Shown piece after piece: positions 3,693 through 26,408 of a DNA stretch of 64,000 nucleotides. A program made the position numbers and the translations under genes. This stretch comes from Neopararhizobium haloflavum (GTDB taxonomy: Bacteria; Pseudomonadota; Alphaproteobacteria; Rhizobiales; Rhizobiaceae), in assembly GCF_002750855.1 (NCBI RefSeq), contig NZ_NWUC01000001.1, forward strand, positions 62,001 to 126,000, read 5' to 3'. The notes under the pieces were generated by a model. The model was not told the DNA's origin and did no database searches. It saw only the letters and a list, made by a program, of their open reading frames with translations. Positions within the stretch are counted from its first letter, which is position 1, and each line of letters opens with the position of its first letter.

Positions 3693-5357
3693 ATGACTCT
3701 GTTAAGCCGACTGGCACCCCTATCCAGAAGCTTCCTGGCGCTCGGTCAGGGGCGCATCATTGCCGTCCTCGGTGGGGCAGCGCTGGCTATCGCGTTGGTC
3801 GTGGCGGCAGGCCTCTATCTAAACCGGCCGACGATGGAGACGCTCTATGTCGGACTGGAAGCCGAAGACGTCAGCAAGGTTTCGCTTGCGATGGCGGAAG
3901 CCGGCATGGATTTCGAGGTCGGAGCGGACGGTGCCAGCGTCAGGGTGCCTGTCGGTACCGTTGGCCGGGCAAGGGCGTTTCTCGCCGAGCGTGGCCTGCC
4001 GGACAGCGCCAATGCCGGCTATGAGCTCTTCGACAATGTCGGCTCGCTCGGCCTGACATCCTTCATGCAGGAAGTGACCCGCGTGCGCGCCCTGGAGGGC
4101 GAGATCGCGCGGACCATCCAGTCGATCAACGGCATCTCGGCCGCACGCGTCCACATCGTGATGCCCGACCGGGGCAATTTTCGCCGCGGCGAGCAGGAGC
4201 CGTCAGCCTCGGTGATGATCCGCACCTCCGGCAGCAACGGGCAGCGCTCGGCCGAATCGGTGCGCCATCTCGTCGCCGCATCGGTGCCGGGTCTCGGCAT
4301 CGACAACGTGACCGTGCTCGATTCCATGGGGCAGTTGCTGGCGTCGGGCGACGACCAGACCAACAGCGCGCTCAACCGCTCTCTCAGTATCGTCCAGCTG
4401 GTCGAAGGCGAGATCGAGAACAATATCGACAAGGCACTGTCGCCGTTTCTGGGTGTCGACAATTTCCGCGCCAGCGTGCGCGCCAACCTCAACACCGACT
4501 CGCAGCAGATCATGGAAACGCTGTTCGATCCGGAATCGCGGGTCGAGCGCTCGATCCGGGTGACGCGCGAGGAAGAGTTGTCCAACCGCTCGGAAGGCGA
4601 CGAACCGGCCACGGTGGAGCAGAACCTGCCGCAAGCCGACCCGGAGACCGCCGGCAGCAGCCCCAGCTCGTCGGAATCGCTTGAACGGCGCGAAGAACAG
4701 ACCAATTTCGAGATCAACTCCAAGACCGTGGAGACGGTCAAGAACAGCTACGACATCGAGGGGCTTTCGATCGCCGTCGTCGTCAACCGGGGCCGGATCG
4801 AGGCAATGCTCGGCGAGGGCGCGACCAGCGAGCAGGTGGACACCTACCTTGCCGAACTCGAGCAGATCGTGCGCAGCGCGGCTGGGCTCAACGAAGAACG
4901 CGGCGACGTCATCTCGCTGAGTGCCATGACGTTCCTCGACCACGAGCTGCTGGAGGAAAATGCCGGAACGACGAGCCTGATGGACAACCTGTCACGCCAC
5001 GCCGGCAGCATGGTCAATGCAGGAGCGTTCATCCTGGTGGCGCTCCTGGTGATCTGGTTCGGCCTGCGTCCGCTGGCCCGCTCGGTCGGAACCGCGGTCG
5101 TGCCTGCCGAGAACGATATGGGTCTTGGCGACTTCAGCCCCGCTGTCGCGGCCGACGGCACCAGCATGGAAGGTTTTGGCGCAGATTTCGGCTTCGAGCC
5201 CGGCGACGATCTTCTCGGGCTCGACCAGTCGAGCGATGGCGGGTTCAACCGCAAGGTCAAGGAAGGGCCAGAGCGGCGCCTTGCCCGCATGGTGGAGCTC
5301 AACGAGGAGCGCGCCGCCAAGATCCTGCGCAAATGGGCGTTGGAAAAGGCCGCCTGA
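3693..5357 (+). CDS. fliF: FliF flagellar MS-ring protein
   Basis: FliF forms the inner-membrane MS ring, the platform for rod, C ring and export gate. From ATG 3693 it has 554 residues: a first membrane helix (about 22-43), the periplasmic ring-building domains, an acidic low-complexity stretch around 305-345, a second membrane helix (about 441-459, AGAFILVALLVIWFGL) and a cytoplasmic C-terminal FliG-binding segment (RMVELNEERAAKILRKWAL). An upstream in-frame ATG at 3642 would add 17 residues, but it lies 3 bases after the promoter box, so 3693 is preferred. Confidence 0.95.
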   Translation: MTLLSRLAPLSRSFLALGQGRIIAVLGGAALAIALVVAAGLYLNRPTMETLYVGLEAEDVSKVSLAMAEAGMDFEVGADGASVRVPVGTVGRARAFLAERGLPDSANAGYELFDNVGSLGLTSFMQEVTRVRALEGEIARTIQSINGISAARVHIVMPDRGNFRRGEQEPSASVMIRTSGSNGQRSAESVRHLVAASVPGLGIDNVTVLDSMGQLLASGDDQTNSALNRSLSIVQLVEGEIENNIDKALSPFLGVDNFRASVRANLNTDSQQIMETLFDPESRVERSIRVTREEELSNRSEGDEPATVEQNLPQADPETAGSSPSSSESLERREEQTNFEINSKTVETVKNSYDIEGLSIAVVVNRGRIEAMLGEGATSEQVDTYLAELEQIVRSAAGLNEERGDVISLSAMTFLDHELLEENAGTTSLMDNLSRHAGSMVNAGAFILVALLVIWFGLRPLARSVGTAVVPAENDMGLGDFSPAVAADGTSMEGFGADFGFEPGDDLLGLDQSSDGGFNRKVKEGPERRLARMVELNEERAAKILRKWALEKAA

Positions 5358-5800: not shown

Positions 5801-6228
5801 ATGGCCCCCCTGCTGCCAAGATGTCGTCTTCCGGCTCGAATTAATGTTACGTCATTTGTTTCTGCGCAAGTAGAGATCGTGATGATTCATGAACTGATCC
5901 CCCATCCTTTTGCCGGATGGCGGCTCGCGCGAAGCGTTGGTGCGCTCACTACGCCGGGTCGGCGGCTTCGGATCATCCCCCTTCGCCAGTCAGATGCGAC
6001 GACCTGCGGATGTGAATGTCTGAAGTTGGTAGTGGACAGCAGGAGTCCGCGTACCTAACCTGTCCTCAGGCGGGCGAATCATATGACCTGCGGCGTTCCG
6101 GTCTCGCGTTAAAGCGTTTGGCGACACGACCTGGCGAGGGAGCCGAGGGTGCTGGGCATTATTGACGCAATGGCAGCGTCATCGATCGACGATTCCGGAG
6201 AGGGCCGCGTGGGCGGTTCACGCGGCGG
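5801..6228 (+). promoter_or_regulatory. Long intergenic region upstream of visN
   Basis: 428 bases without a convincing gene. It must hold the promoter of visNR (plus strand) and that of the PAS-like gene (minus strand). It lacks the CGCGCAAG-N9-CTAG box found before the structural operons, as expected if visNR sit at the top of the hierarchy. A short CATCC-TTTTGC-GGATG-type inverted repeat occurs near 5907-5925. An 85-codon reading frame here has no family resemblance. Confidence 0.4.
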
Positions 6229-6906
6229 ATGCGCATGATCGGCCGTACGGAGCTGCTGCAAAAGCTTGAGTTGACAGTCGAGCGCAACGAGATCGCTGCC
6301 GGGCTGGAGTTGCTATCGGCCTTCGTCGGTGCGGAACATTATCTGCTCGCACGTTACGACGTGTTCGCCGAGGATGGCTACGACTACGTGGTATCGTCGA
6401 ACTGGCCTTTCGACCTGCTGCGCTCGCTGGGCGCGGTCGTTGCTCGCCAGCAGTCGAAGCGCAACGAGGTTGAGCGTTGCATGGCAGCCATGGAGCCCGA
6501 ATTCGTGCGATGCGGCGCGGGCATACGGTTTCCCGCACATCTCAGCCGCACCTACTGCGCGGTCACCTTCAATGCGGGACAGGCGCGGCTGATGCTGGTG
6601 CTGCTCTTTCGCGACGACGTCGTGAGGGCACAGGACCGGCTGCACGACGCGGCCCTCATTGGAGCCTACTATGCGGCACGCTTCGACCAGGCATCTTTCG
6701 TGCCGGAGAGCGTGCTGGACCTGACGGATCGGGAGATCGAGTGCCTGAACTGGATCGCGGAAGGCAAGACGAGCGATGAGATCTCGATGATCATCGGCAT
6801 CTCGCGCAACACGGTGAACAACTACATCACGAGCATCATGCGCAAGACTTCGACCAAGACACGATCGGAAGCGATCGCTTACGCGGTGCGCAACGGACTG
6901 ATCTGA
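6229..6906 (+). CDS. visN: VisN, LuxR-type master regulator of motility
   Basis: VisN and VisR form the global activator of flagellar, motility and chemotaxis genes in rhizobia, acting by switching on rem. The 225 residues have an N-terminal ligand-binding-like domain (about 1-155) and a C-terminal LuxR helix-turn-helix (LTDREIECLNWIAEGKTSDE, then ISRNTVNNYI) at about 160-225. The partner visR follows after 96 bases. Alternative start ATG 6235 would remove two residues. Identification rests on the HTH family plus the visN-visR pair at the fliF-flhB junction. Confidence 0.9.
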   Translation: MRMIGRTELLQKLELTVERNEIAAGLELLSAFVGAEHYLLARYDVFAEDGYDYVVSSNWPFDLLRSLGAVVARQQSKRNEVERCMAAMEPEFVRCGAGIRFPAHLSRTYCAVTFNAGQARLMLVLLFRDDVVRAQDRLHDAALIGAYYAARFDQASFVPESVLDLTDREIECLNWIAEGKTSDEISMIIGISRNTVNNYITSIMRKTSTKTRSEAIAYAVRNGLI

Positions 6907-21343: not shown

Positions 21344-21853
21344 ATGGGTGACATGACGACACCTGAGGACGGCAAGGCCAAGGGGCCATCGATGATCGTG
21401 ACGCTCGCGGTCGTGGCGGTGCTCTCGCTGGTCGCGGCCGGCGGCGGATGGATGATGGGCGGTCTCCTGGCGCCGACGGCCGAGGCGGTTCAGACCGCGG
21501 CGCGCGAGGGCGCAACGGGCCACGGCGAGACGGCCGAGGCGGAAGGCGCGGGCGCCGAGGGCGAACCGGCCGATGCGATCATCGATCTCGCGGCGATCAC
21601 CACCAATCTGGCCTATCCGGCGGAGAACTGGATCCGCCTCGAAGTCTCGCTGCTCTTCGACGGGGCGGGCGACGAGGCGATGGCGCGGGTCATCCAGGAA
21701 GACATGCTGGCCTATCTGCGCACGGTGTCGTTGCAGCAGATCGAGGGTCCGCGCGGCTTCCAGCATCTGCGCGAGGACCTCAGCGAACGGGCGAGCCTGC
21801 GCTCGGAAGGGCGGGTGACCGACCTTCTCTTCAAGACCTTCGTGATCGAATGA
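21344..21853 (+). CDS. fliL: FliL stator-associated basal-body protein
   Basis: 169 residues: short cytoplasmic N-terminus, one membrane helix (about 14-40, IVTLAVVAVLSLVAAGGGWM), an acidic linker, and a periplasmic stomatin-like FliL domain (WIRLEVSLLFDGAGDEAMAR, DMLAYLRTVSLQQIEGPRGF, RVTDLLFKTFVIE). FliL surrounds the stator and supports torque. Start may be ATG 21344 or 21353. Its stop overlaps the fliP start. A second FliL-like protein is encoded at 42423. Confidence 0.94.
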   Translation: MGDMTTPEDGKAKGPSMIVTLAVVAVLSLVAAGGGWMMGGLLAPTAEAVQTAAREGATGHGETAEAEGAGAEGEPADAIIDLAAITTNLAYPAENWIRLEVSLLFDGAGDEAMARVIQEDMLAYLRTVSLQQIEGPRGFQHLREDLSERASLRSEGRVTDLLFKTFVIE

Positions 21854-22587
21854 ACCGTCTTTTCCTCACGGCCGTCCTGTTCCTGGTGTTTTGCGCCGGG
21901 GCGAAGGCGCAAGGCATCGACACCGATTTCCTCACCGAACCCGTCGACGGCTCGGTCGCCAGCTGGATCATCCGCACCTTCGGGCTGATCACGGTGCTCT
22001 CGCTGGCGCCTGGGATCCTCGTCATGGTGACGAGCTTTCCGCGCCTGATCATCGCCTTTTCCATCCTGCGGGCGGGCATGGGGCTGCAGACGACGCCGGC
22101 CAACCTCATCATCGTGTCGCTGGCGCTTTTCATGACGTTCTACATCATGGCGCCGACCTTCGACCGGGCATGGAACGAGGGCGTCCAGCCGCTGATGGAA
22201 GAGCAGATCACCGAGGAAGAAGCCTTCCCGCTCATCGCCGAACCGTTCCGCGACTTCATGATGGCCAATACGCGCGACGAAGATCTCAACCTCTTCATCG
22301 ACATCGCCACCGAGCGCGGCCAGACGGTCGAGACCGACGGCGTGATCGACCTGCGCGTCCTGACCCCGGCCTTCATGATCTCGGAGATCCGGCGCGGCTT
22401 CGAGATCGGCTTCCTCGTCGTGCTGCCGTTCCTCGTCATCGACCTCGTCGTCGCCACCATCACCATGTCGATGGGCATGATGATGCTGCCGCCCACCGCC
22501 GTCTCGCTGCCCTTCAAGGTGCTGTTCTTCGTCCTCATCGACGGCTGGAACCTGCTGGTGGGATCCCTGGTGCGCTCTTTCGTCTGA
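21850..22587 (+). CDS. fliP: FliP flagellar export-gate protein
   Basis: 245 residues from ATG 21850. It has a cleavable signal peptide (MNRLFLTAVLFLVFCAG, near AKAQ), as FliP does, and four membrane helices, including LAPGILVMVTSFPRLIIAFS and VVLPFLVIDLVVATITMSMG with MMMLPPTAVSLPFKVLFFVL. FliP, FliQ (37650) and FliR (40111) form the export pore. It is the last flagellar gene of the flgB operon; the toxin-antitoxin-like cassette follows after 62 bases. Confidence 0.97.
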   Translation: MNRLFLTAVLFLVFCAGAKAQGIDTDFLTEPVDGSVASWIIRTFGLITVLSLAPGILVMVTSFPRLIIAFSILRAGMGLQTTPANLIIVSLALFMTFYIMAPTFDRAWNEGVQPLMEEQITEEEAFPLIAEPFRDFMMANTRDEDLNLFIDIATERGQTVETDGVIDLRVLTPAFMISEIRRGFEIGFLVVLPFLVIDLVVATITMSMGMMMLPPTAVSLPFKVLFFVLIDGWNLLVGSLVRSFV

Positions 22588-22600
22588 GGTGATTGCCGAA

Positions 22601-22635
22601 ATCTGTAACTTCTGTATGATGCAGAAATTACAGAT
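22601..22635 (+). promoter_or_regulatory. Palindromic operator/promoter of the toxin-antitoxin-like pair
   Basis: Inverted repeat with 14-base arms: ATCTGTAACTTCTG (22601-22614), spacer TATGATG, CAGAAATTACAGAT (22622-22635), 13 of 14 pairs matching. A TATGAT -10-like element (22615-22620) lies in the spacer, with TTGCCG (22593-22598) 16 bases upstream as a possible -35, so a protein on the palindrome would cover the promoter. This is the arrangement of an autoregulated toxin-antitoxin operon. The antitoxin ATG is 14 bases downstream. Confidence 0.7.
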
Positions 22636-22649
22636 CATGGTGATGACGG

Positions 22650-22907
22650 ATGAAGACTTTCACTTTCTCTGACCTCAGCCGCCGATCGGGTGATGTCCTC
22701 GACGCCGCGATGACCGAACCGATTTTTCTGATGAAGCGCGGCAAAACGAAGGTCGTGATGATGCCCACCGGCGACTATGAGCGCCTGCTGCGCGGTCGAA
22801 GCGAACGCACTGCCTTCACGCTTGCCGATGCGCCCGCCGAGGATGTCGAGAATCTGGCGGCGGGCTTTCGACAGATCATCGATGAGGCGGAGACCTCCCG
22901 TGAATGA
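22650..22907 (+). CDS. Phd/YefM-like antitoxin
   Basis: 85 residues. The N-terminal ~50 residues fit the Phd/YefM antitoxin DNA-binding fold: FTFSDLSRRSGDVLDAAMTE, then a basic strand MKRGKTKVVMMPTGDYERLL. The C-terminal ~35 residues are acidic and helical (AEDVENLAAGFRQIIDEAE), the usual toxin-neutralising tail. It overlaps the downstream gene by 4 bases and follows a strong palindrome. Base composition looks less GC-rich than the flagellar genes around it. Such a gene is not part of the standard rhizobial flagellar set, so recent insertion is likely. Confidence 0.8.
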   Translation: MKTFTFSDLSRRSGDVLDAAMTEPIFLMKRGKTKVVMMPTGDYERLLRGRSERTAFTLADAPAEDVENLAAGFRQIIDEAETSRE

Positions 22908-23314
22908 GGCGGGGTGAGGTCTACCTCTTCAACTATCTGTGGGGCCACGAGGCCGCACGCGGTGAGGAAAGCGGCCGGAAAATTCGCCACGTCTGCCTGA
23001 TGATGCAGGTCGACCAGTGGCTCTATCTGTTTCCGATTTCCGGACGGCATCCGCAGCCGCGCATCGCTGATGAGCAACGGCTCTACGAAATCATCCCGGA
23101 AACCGAATGCCGGCGGGTCGGCCTTGGGACGAGCGGCAAGGTCAGTCACCTCATTCTCGATGATTTCAACAAAGTCCGCGCCGACGAACTCTATGATTTT
23201 GAAAGCCTGACGCCAGTGGGCTCTTTCAGTCACCGTTTTCTTGAGAAGGTGGCCCGCCGGTTTCTCGATGCCATGCAGCAGCGGCATCCGATTGCCGGCC
23301 TGACGCGGCGCTGA
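22904..23314 (+). CDS. Putative PemK/MazF-like toxin
   Basis: 136 residues, ATG overlapping the antitoxin stop. The sequence resembles the MazF/PemK SH3-like barrel in outline: a first strand RRGEVYLFNYLW, an insertion rich in charged residues (GHEAARGEESGRKIRHVCLM), a strand with LYLFPISGRH in the place of the MazF APITS strand, then IPETECRRVGLGTSGKVSHL and ILDDFNKVRADELYDFE. Classical MazF motifs are only loosely conserved, so this is a divergent family; RNase activity is inferred. Other possibilities are a different toxin fold or a nucleic-acid-binding protein. Confidence 0.65.
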   Translation: MRRGEVYLFNYLWGHEAARGEESGRKIRHVCLMMQVDQWLYLFPISGRHPQPRIADEQRLYEIIPETECRRVGLGTSGKVSHLILDDFNKVRADELYDFESLTPVGSFSHRFLEKVARRFLDAMQQRHPIAGLTRR

Positions 23315-23534
23315 GCGAGCCGGCGGATTTCGGTGCCATATTAGCATTTCCTGTCCCGGCTTAACGCTTTGGCAAGACCCGTCTGCGAAGTTCCACTTCA
23401 ACATGACGGGTTCGGCGATATGGGACGGGGTTCCCGCGCCGAGTGGCATGATGCCAGACCGCCATCGCCGGTATTGCGTTACCACTAGTCCGGTATGTCC
23501 CTCCTAATTCTCGCGTGGAAACAAGGGATATTTC
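23315..23534 (+). promoter_or_regulatory. Flagellin gene A upstream region
   Basis: 220 bases between the toxin-like gene and the first flagellin. It contains TTAACGCTTTGGCAAG at 23361-23376, which matches 12 of 16 bases with a site before the second flagellin (25038-25053). The general CGCGCAAG-N9-CTAG box is absent. A GGAAACAAGGGATAT stretch directly upstream of the ATG gives the ribosome-binding site. The insertion of the toxin-antitoxin cassette leaves this leader intact. Confidence 0.5.
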
Positions 23535-24866
23535 ATGTCCAGCATCATGACCAACACGTCGTCCATGGCGGCGCTGCAGACACTTCGTTCCATCAACGAC
23601 CAGATGGGCACCACCCAGAACCGCATATCGTCGGGCCTCAAGGTCGGCAGCGCGTCCGACAACGCCGCCTACTGGTCGATCGCGACCACCATGCGCTCCG
23701 ACAACGCAGCGATGTCCACCGTTTCAGACGCCCTCGGCCTCGGCGCCGCGCAGGTCGACATCGCCTACACGGCGATGGAATCGGTCAAGGACACGCTCGA
23801 CGAGATCAAGACGAAGCTCGTCGCTGCACAGCAGCCGGACGTCGACAAGTCGAAGATTCAGTCTGAGATCAAGCAGCTTCAGGAAGACCTGAAGACTTTT
23901 GCAAGCTCTGCAACTTTCTCGGGCGGCAACTGGCTGGATGTTAGCGAAGCCGAGACACAGAAGGTCGTCGCTTCGTTCCTTCGCGATTCCAATGGTGTCT
24001 CGCTCGGCACGATCGATGTCGACACGGCTAAGACAGCCTTGTTCAACAGCGCAACCGATGAAACGGGACTGCTGGAGCAAGGCGACGCGATTACTATTGG
24101 GGCGAACGCCGCTGACGACGTCGAGTTCGACGGATCAACCGCCGCCGATACTGACCCCATCGAGATCGAAGACGTTTTCGTCCATGATTTCGCTGCGGCC
24201 GCCGATGGCGCTATCGACCTGAATGACGGCGGCGCGATCAAGTTCGATATCAATATCAATGGCGAAGAAACCCGCGTTACGATCAATGCGAAGACTCTCG
24301 AAGATGCTGGCATCACTGATGGCCTAGTTGACTCAGATGCAGACCTCCTCGCCGCATTCAACGCCGCTCTGACTTCCGCGGGCGTCAATGATCAGGTTGA
24401 GGCGGTCGCCGGCACGACAGGCGGCGTGAACATCCAGCAGATCGACGACGCCGGCGCTGTGGTCACCTTCGATGGAAACACGGACGACGCCAACACCTAC
24501 GAACTGAGCGTCAGCAACGTTCGTACCTCCGACAACGGCAACTTCTTCGAGGCAACCGGCTTCGACATCTCCAGTGCCGGATCGCTCGATCTCGAGGAAT
24601 ATATGCAGGGCGTCGACTCGATGCTGTCTGCGGTCACCACGGCCGCTTCGGATCTTGGTGCCATCAAGACCCGTGTCGACAGCCAGCAGAGCTTCGTCTC
24701 GAAGCTGATGGATGCCGTGGATCGCGGCGTCGGCCAGCTCGTCGATGCGGACATGAACGAAGAGTCGACCCGCCTCAAGGCTCTGCAGACGCAGCAGCAG
24801 CTCGGCATCCAGGCGCTGTCGATCGCCAACAACGAGACGCAGAACATCCTGTCGCTCTTCCGCTAA
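23535..24866 (+). CDS. flaA: Flagellin (first copy)
   Basis: 443 residues. The conserved D0/D1 N-terminal region (about 1-150: LRSINDQMGTTQNRISSGLK, SDNAAYWSIATTMRSDNAAM) and C-terminal region (about 355-443: LGAIKTRVDSQQSFVSKLMD, VDADMNEESTRLKALQTQQQ, then LGIQALSIANNETQNILSLF) flank an acidic variable domain facing the outside of the filament. It is exported by the flagellar apparatus and controlled by FlaF/FlbT (36451-37244). The second flagellin shares the ends but has a different middle. Confidence 0.97.
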   Translation: MSSIMTNTSSMAALQTLRSINDQMGTTQNRISSGLKVGSASDNAAYWSIATTMRSDNAAMSTVSDALGLGAAQVDIAYTAMESVKDTLDEIKTKLVAAQQPDVDKSKIQSEIKQLQEDLKTFASSATFSGGNWLDVSEAETQKVVASFLRDSNGVSLGTIDVDTAKTALFNSATDETGLLEQGDAITIGANAADDVEFDGSTAADTDPIEIEDVFVHDFAAAADGAIDLNDGGAIKFDININGEETRVTINAKTLEDAGITDGLVDSDADLLAAFNAALTSAGVNDQVEAVAGTTGGVNIQQIDDAGAVVTFDGNTDDANTYELSVSNVRTSDNGNFFEATGFDISSAGSLDLEEYMQGVDSMLSAVTTAASDLGAIKTRVDSQQSFVSKLMDAVDRGVGQLVDADMNEESTRLKALQTQQQLGIQALSIANNETQNILSLFR

Positions 24867-25157: not shown

Positions 25158-26408
25158 GTGAGCAGCATCATGACAAACGCCGCCGCGATGGCGGCGCTTC
25201 ACACGCTTCGCAGCATCAACAGCGAAATGGGCGTGACGCAGAACCGGATTTCGTCTGGTCTTCGCGTCGAAACGGCATCGGACAACGCCGCCTACTGGTC
25301 GATCGCGACGACGATGCGCTCCGACAACAACGCCATGTCGACGGTGCAGGACGCGCTCGGCCTCGGCGCGGCCCAGGTCGACGTCGCCTATACGGCGATG
25401 GAATCGATCAAGGACACGCTCGACGAGATCAAGACCAAGCTGGTCGCCGCCTCGCAGCCTGATGTCGACAAAGGCAAGATCCAGTCTGAAATCGCGCAGC
25501 TTCAAAGCGACCTTCTGACGTTCGCGAAGTCGGCGACCTTCTCGGGCGGCAACTGGCTCGACGTCAGCGGCTTCGGCATGCAGAAGATCGTTGCTTCGTT
25601 CACCCGCGACGAAGCCGGCAACATCGCGCTCGGCACGATCGACGTCGACACCGCCAAGACGGCGCTCTTCAATTCCGACCCTGCCGATTACGGGCTGCTG
25701 GAAGGCGAGGGGAACTTCTCGCTCGGCGGCCTGACAGTGGGCGCCTCGACGGCGAGTGAGTTCACCCCGGCGGCAGCTCCCGGCACGATCGAACTCGATG
25801 GTTTCACCGGACCGTTGTCACTCGCGCTGGGCGACAGCATCGAATTCGAAATGACCTATGGCGGCGTGACGGAGACGATCCGGATCGACGGCGAGGACCC
25901 GGCACTGGCGATCGCAGATGCCGCTGGACTTGTTACGCATCTGGACACCGCTGTGGCTGCGGCTTTCACAGGCTTCACTGCAACCGAAAACTCCGGTGTG
26001 ATCACGATCACTACGACGACCCCGACAGGTGCCGCCGAGGCGAGCCCCGTCACCATCGAGAATCTGCGGGCCCGTCCCGGACAGCTCGATATCCTCGCGA
26101 TCGATATCACGATGGTGAACGACGGCGATCTGGCCGGGCTGGTCGACGGCGTCGACCGGGCCTTGAGTTCCGTGACGACCGCGGCCTCGGACCTTGGCGC
26201 CATCAAGTCGCGCGTCGACAGCCAGCAGGACTTCGTCTCCAAGCTGATGGACGCGGTGGACCGGGGCATCGGCCAGCTCGTCGATGCGGACATGAACGAG
26301 GAGTCCACGCGGCTGAAGGCGTTGCAGACGCAGCAGCAGCTTGGCGTGCAGGCGCTTTCGATCGCCAACCAGAATTCGCAGCTGATCCTGCAGCTCTTCC
26401 AGAACTGA
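25158..26408 (+). CDS. flaB: Flagellin (second copy)
   Basis: 416 residues from GTG 25158 (MSSIMTNAAAMAALHTLRSI), matching the N-terminus of the first flagellin. N- and C-terminal D0/D1 regions are almost the same as in the first copy (SDNAAYWSIATTMRSDNNAM; VDADMNEESTRLKALQTQQQ), while the central ~200 residues differ (GGLTVGASTASEFTPAAAPG and Thr-rich ITITTTTPTGAAEA). It probably copolymerises with the first flagellin. ATG 25170 is a less likely start because it loses the conserved MSSI. Confidence 0.96.
   Translation: MSSIMTNAAAMAALHTLRSINSEMGVTQNRISSGLRVETASDNAAYWSIATTMRSDNNAMSTVQDALGLGAAQVDVAYTAMESIKDTLDEIKTKLVAASQPDVDKGKIQSEIAQLQSDLLTFAKSATFSGGNWLDVSGFGMQKIVASFTRDEAGNIALGTIDVDTAKTALFNSDPADYGLLEGEGNFSLGGLTVGASTASEFTPAAAPGTIELDGFTGPLSLALGDSIEFEMTYGGVTETIRIDGEDPALAIADAAGLVTHLDTAVAAAFTGFTATENSGVITITTTTPTGAAEASPVTIENLRARPGQLDILAIDITMVNDGDLAGLVDGVDRALSSVTTAASDLGAIKSRVDSQQDFVSKLMDAVDRGIGQLVDADMNEESTRLKALQTQQQLGVQALSIANQNSQLILQLFQN

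Follow-up and report, generated by a model that had tools for sequence, protein, structure and literature searches.

Between the flagellar gene fliP and the first of two flagellin genes, the 64,000-nt stretch of Neopararhizobium haloflavum DNA analysed here (contig NZ_NWUC01000001.1, positions 62,001 to 126,000; hereafter the window) carries a two-gene cassette that we consider, with a probability of roughly 0.9, to be a type II toxin-antitoxin module of the SMa0917-PHD kind found in alpha-proteobacteria, that is, an addiction module acting for itself and not for the flagellum. The assignment is built on the gene order, the family of the antitoxin, the predicted fold and the catalytic positions of the toxin, a palindrome over a promoter-like site, and an insertion recognised by comparison with unoccupied sites in other genomes. 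The features are as follows, in coordinates of the window.

22588..23319, forward strand: inserted unit (extent of the DNA match to the nearest copies elsewhere; absent from sister genomes)
22593..22620, forward strand: sigma-70-like promoter, TTGCCG, 16 nt, TATGAT (consensus scan, 9/12 matches)
22601..22635, no strand assigned: operator-like palindrome overlapping the -10 element (17-nt arms, DNA fold z -4.9)
22650..22907, forward strand: Phd/YefM-family antitoxin, 85 aa (PF02604, TIGR01552)
22904..23314, forward strand: toxin of the SMa0917-like family with a predicted MazF/PemK fold, 136 aa (AlphaFold2 model, Foldseek, catalytic positions)
21850..22587, forward strand: fliP, left neighbour, outside the cassette (PF00813, E 3.1e-74)
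23535..24866, forward strand: first flagellin gene, right neighbour, given as context (PF00669, PF00700)

Antitoxin, toxin and predicted fold

A preliminary description of this DNA, made from the sequence alone, had given correctly the coordinates, the reading frames and the 4-base overlap (ATGA) of the two open reading frames (ORFs), and had rightly taken the product of the first for Phd/YefM-like, since it matches PF02604 (E 1.7e-8; 34.6 bits, the curated cut-off being 29.8) and TIGR01552 (E 8e-6). It had also described the second product as PemK/MazF-like, which holds for the fold, as judged from the predicted structure, but not at the level of profiles: the window toxin alone gave no Pfam, NCBIfam, PADLOC (E<=1) or PDB sequence match, and it is not matched by the curated profile PF02452. 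A MazF/Kid fold is predicted by the AlphaFold2 model (predicted local distance difference test, pLDDT, 94.1), for which all 14 PDB chains found with Foldseek at E<=1e-3 are of MazF type; a VIA comparison of the model also matches MazF. Arg28 and Ser46 occupy the MazF catalytic positions. In an alignment of 52 relatives, chosen for diversity from the 108 hits of a family-profile search, with plasmid rows and known broken copies left out, and nine canonical PemK rows chosen from 20 loci, the catalytic Arg is kept in 52 of the 52 relatives and the catalytic Thr/Ser position holds T in 44 and S in eight. The Pfam PemK model was matched by 13 of these 52 at E<=1 (best 2.2e-7) and misses the other 39. 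CcdB shares the fold, and a toxin that poisons gyrase as CcdB does, instead of cutting RNA, is a reading that we find scarcely credible. In one plasmid copy, L031 of Phyllobacterium zundukense (5992-6390), about five residues are missing ahead of the Ile-Ser catalytic stretch, and no usual start codon stands where one is expected.

A Phd-like ORF adjoins the toxin in 108 of the 108 hits and ends near the point where the toxin begins or, if the toxin gene is broken, near the start of its first piece. Among the 108 the window is counted two times, some contigs present in two collections are repeated, and fragments of broken copies are included; the number falls to 90 once repeats are removed. 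Most often the two ORFs overlap by 8 bases (55) or by 4 bases (20). The antitoxin profile was seeded with the window antitoxin and built in two rounds from those same upstream ORFs, so its E-values are flattered. An antitoxin-like ORF still adjoins the toxin gene where the latter is broken by internal stops or frameshifts (L060, L061, L038/L070, L025, L026, L100, L103 and L104).

Such broken relatives, together with Ser in place of Thr at position 46, would favour an inactive relic or a pair retained only as a repressor. In the window, on the other hand, both frames are intact and the catalytic positions are kept, and in those pairs that can be read the ratio of nonsynonymous to synonymous divergence (dN/dS) is low. 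For the toxin it is 0.15 against L036 (synonymous divergence, pS, 0.59) and 0.25 against the more distant L002, pS against L037 and L039 (0.72 and 0.77) being at or past saturation; for the antitoxin it is 0.14, 0.15, 0.07 (pS 0.74) and 0.30 against L036, L037, L039 and L002, respectively. A relic or a mere repressor is, in our opinion, unlikely.

Relation to known systems and distribution of relatives

The window pair belongs to the SMa0917-PHD family predicted in 2009; its kind is known, and it is the landing site that is unusual. In the sections of Makarova et al. (2009; PMC2701414) that deal with it, the SMa0917-like family is alpha-proteobacteria-specific, adjoins PHD antitoxins and is predicted to fall in the PemK/MazF superfamily, a prediction of a MazF-like toxin made from sequence and secondary structure; the same sections place SMa0917 on pSymA of Sinorhizobium meliloti, and Table 6 counts 12 plasmid and seven chromosomal MazF-PHD pairs. 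The profile of the window toxin family matches an ORF of pSymA at about 509831-510208 (E 4e-27), which stops short at the C terminus and has a weak antitoxin match upstream (E 6e-5); because the record bears no locus tags, the identification of this ORF with SMa0917 rests on family and replicon. As far as those sections describe it, SMa0917-PHD resembles the window pair in joining a Phd-type antitoxin to a divergent, alpha-proteobacterial PemK/MazF-like toxin and in having copies on plasmids; the plasmid enrichment reported for it contrasts with the window copy, which stands in the flagellar cluster, on a contig of 838 kb, and is probably chromosomal. PapA-PapT of S. meliloti pSmeLPU88b, called a plasmid addiction pair in the excerpts of PMC10194956 used here, is described with the same make-up of a Phd/YefM protein and an adjacent PemK-like one, but unlike the window pair it is plasmid-borne and follows repABC. 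With the MazF/PemK/Kid mRNA interferases (PF02452) the window toxin shares the predicted fold and the catalytic Arg and Thr/Ser positions, whereas its partner is Phd/YefM instead of MazE/PemI and its sequence is too divergent for the Pfam model.

The preliminary description had called the toxin family poorly characterised. This agrees with the literature searched, in the parts available to us, where no experimental study of the SMa0917-like toxins was found, but already in 2009 the sections of PMC2701414 mentioned above had identified the family as a PemK/MazF-PHD system. Among the papers that name SMa0917, this one alone looked pertinent. Our analysis adds a confident predicted structure to that prediction, documents a clear case in which such a unit has entered a flagellar locus, at a site unoccupied in sister species, and finds that most of the tested relatives escape the Pfam PemK model; beyond these three points the system is ordinary.

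Relatives of the toxin were detected in 300 of 72,556 plasmid records (E<=0.01), 158 of which are typed as conjugative, and several are annotated there as 'PemK/MazF family toxin'. They are also present in 97 of the 395 genomes searched from the host's family and in 32 of the 397 from its order, the window's own genome being counted in each. The ten organism names listed, which cover 246 of the 300 plasmid records (36 further names are unlisted), are presumably all alpha-proteobacterial, and we take the 39 genome-contig loci with relatives to be so as well. None of 50,697 phage records yielded a toxin relative at E<=0.1; in viral contigs, in a search aimed at close relatives only, four stretches fitted the pattern and none encodes a relative.

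The cassette lies among unrelated genes in all seven other neighbourhoods examined. Those on plasmids contain zigA and a VapC pair, a domain of unknown function with PilZ, IS110, IS21 with a ParB-like gene, and ParB-like with DarT-like genes, respectively; around two close relatives on genome contigs, six of ten neighbouring ORFs have Pfam matches, none of them flagellar. On a plasmid of Chelativorans (L035, 4246-4755), an annotated DarT-like ADP-ribosyltransferase lies about 0.9 kb from the cassette, with a ParB-like gene in the same stretch. A 6.1-kb contig of an Oricola metagenome-assembled genome (L102) carries two cassettes of different subgroups (730-1123 and 4236-4646), one of them broken.

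Insertion between fliP and the flagellin genes

Among the four genomes of the genus examined, the toxin is present only in that of the window. In the three sister genomes, fliP (84-86% identical) is followed by flagellin after 257-261 bases, versus 947 in the window (stop codon excluded). All four genomes align well over the 170 bases or so that precede the flagellin start; in the window, the beginning of the native region can no longer be recognised. A wider comparison comprised 31 non-window fliP loci, namely 29 of the 30 from a fliP search (matches in 98 of 121 genomes), one of them from a sister species, and the two remaining sister loci. The cassette was found in none of the 31 within the 0.9-1.5 kb examined downstream, the three sister species included; flagellin lies 219-495 bases downstream in 24 of them, and none is recognisable within the stretch in the other seven. 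On this count a conserved flagellar gene pair was rejected. The comparison also bears out the earlier statement that an intact pair with an operator-like palindrome lies between fliP and the flagellin genes as an inserted element, and the cassette is, on sequence comparison, a lineage-specific insertion.

At the DNA level, L031 and L036-L039 resemble the window from 22593, 22599 or 22650 up to 23265-23319, and L002, L032 and L040, which are more distant, do so over a shorter length. With the closest copies the resemblance stops near the cassette borders, and the shared unit is the operator plus the two genes. The highest DNA identity to any copy elsewhere is 72%, so that no close donor is seen. 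The G+C content at third codon positions is 0.71 in both cassette genes, 0.92 in fliP and 0.77 in flagellin. A search for target duplication at the cassette borders gave no convincing repeat.

The location raises the question of whether the pair has been co-opted for the flagellum, in such a way that its promoter, or an action of the toxin on flagellar mRNA, controls flagellin, or that the motility locus is kept from loss. In favour of co-option one could cite that the cassette shares its strand with fliP and the flagellins, that a search of 22400-23600 gave no terminator-like site (nor did one of two sister loci), and that the native intergenic region has lost its first part. It is nevertheless very unlikely, considering the 31 fliP loci that lack the cassette, the unrelated genes around it in the seven other neighbourhoods, and the retention of the flagellin-proximal part of the intergenic region. 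Those unrelated surroundings also speak against the earlier proposal that the cassette stabilises the motility locus or is tied to flagellar state, and none of the comparisons made here supports a flagellar role. More doubtful still is a specific variant in which the insertion rewired the locus in this species only: transcription starting at the cassette promoter, at a level governed by the antitoxin:toxin ratio, would run on into the flagellin genes and make flagellin supply depend on the growth-arrest state. In the literature on toxin-antitoxin systems with flagellin or fliP in alphaproteobacteria, as judged by titles and the beginnings of abstracts, nothing on the topic was found. The most likely explanation is a mobile addiction module lodged between two genes at a place where an insertion is tolerated.

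Palindrome, proposed action and locus layout

The arms of the palindrome (22601-22617 and 22619-22635) are 88% complementary. The preliminary description had noted it, with the TATGAT inside, but understated its arms as 14 bases, 17 nt being measured here. A 61-nt stretch containing it folds as DNA at -11 kcal/mol, compared with -3.5 in shuffled sequences (z -4.9), and none of 200 shuffles was as good. The -10-like TATGAT at 22615-22620 lies within the palindrome, preceded by the -35-like TTGCCG at 22593; this promoter match is weak on its own, because 9/12 is the reporting minimum of the scan, which gave one site in 1.2 kb against 0.3 +- 0.6 in shuffles. Among 88 distinct upstream regions of the family, a set that leaves out repeated regions, those shorter than 70 bases and those lacking a start codon about where one would be expected, the palindrome was equalled by at most one of 50 mononucleotide shuffles in 42, the window included, and not in 46. 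Of the eight closest copies, L002, L031 and L036-L039 pass this criterion and L032 and L040 fail it. The core TTCTGTATnATnCAGAA is shared by the window, L031 and L036. By eye, TACGTA-like repeated cores are seen upstream of other subgroups (e.g. L046, L083, L093), and CTGTAT/ATnCAG in that of the window. The pattern would fit a joint divergence of operator and antitoxin across subgroups.

By analogy with the family, the N-terminal Phd/YefM domain of the antitoxin, recognised by profile, would bind the palindrome over the -10 element and repress its own promoter, the more strongly once the toxin is bound, and the C-terminal part would bind and block the toxin. Free toxin would cut RNA through Arg28 and Ser46, and growth would stop until antitoxin is made again. 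The module spreads with its operator, antitoxin and toxin as one unit, frequently carried by plasmids. Comparison with the sister genomes shows that here it settled after fliP, where it replaced the beginning of the intergenic region and spared the flagellin-proximal part. There it most likely serves itself as an addiction module rather than the flagellum.

As to the surrounding locus, no known RNA family reached its gathering score in 21500-24500. Eight of the ten ORFs scanned in the flagellar cluster match FlgI, FlgH, FliL, FliP, flagellin (twice), a MotB-type protein and FliK, and the remaining two have no family match. The two flagellin genes are adjacent (23535-24866 and 25158-26408; 443 and 416 aa), and their products have long middle regions.
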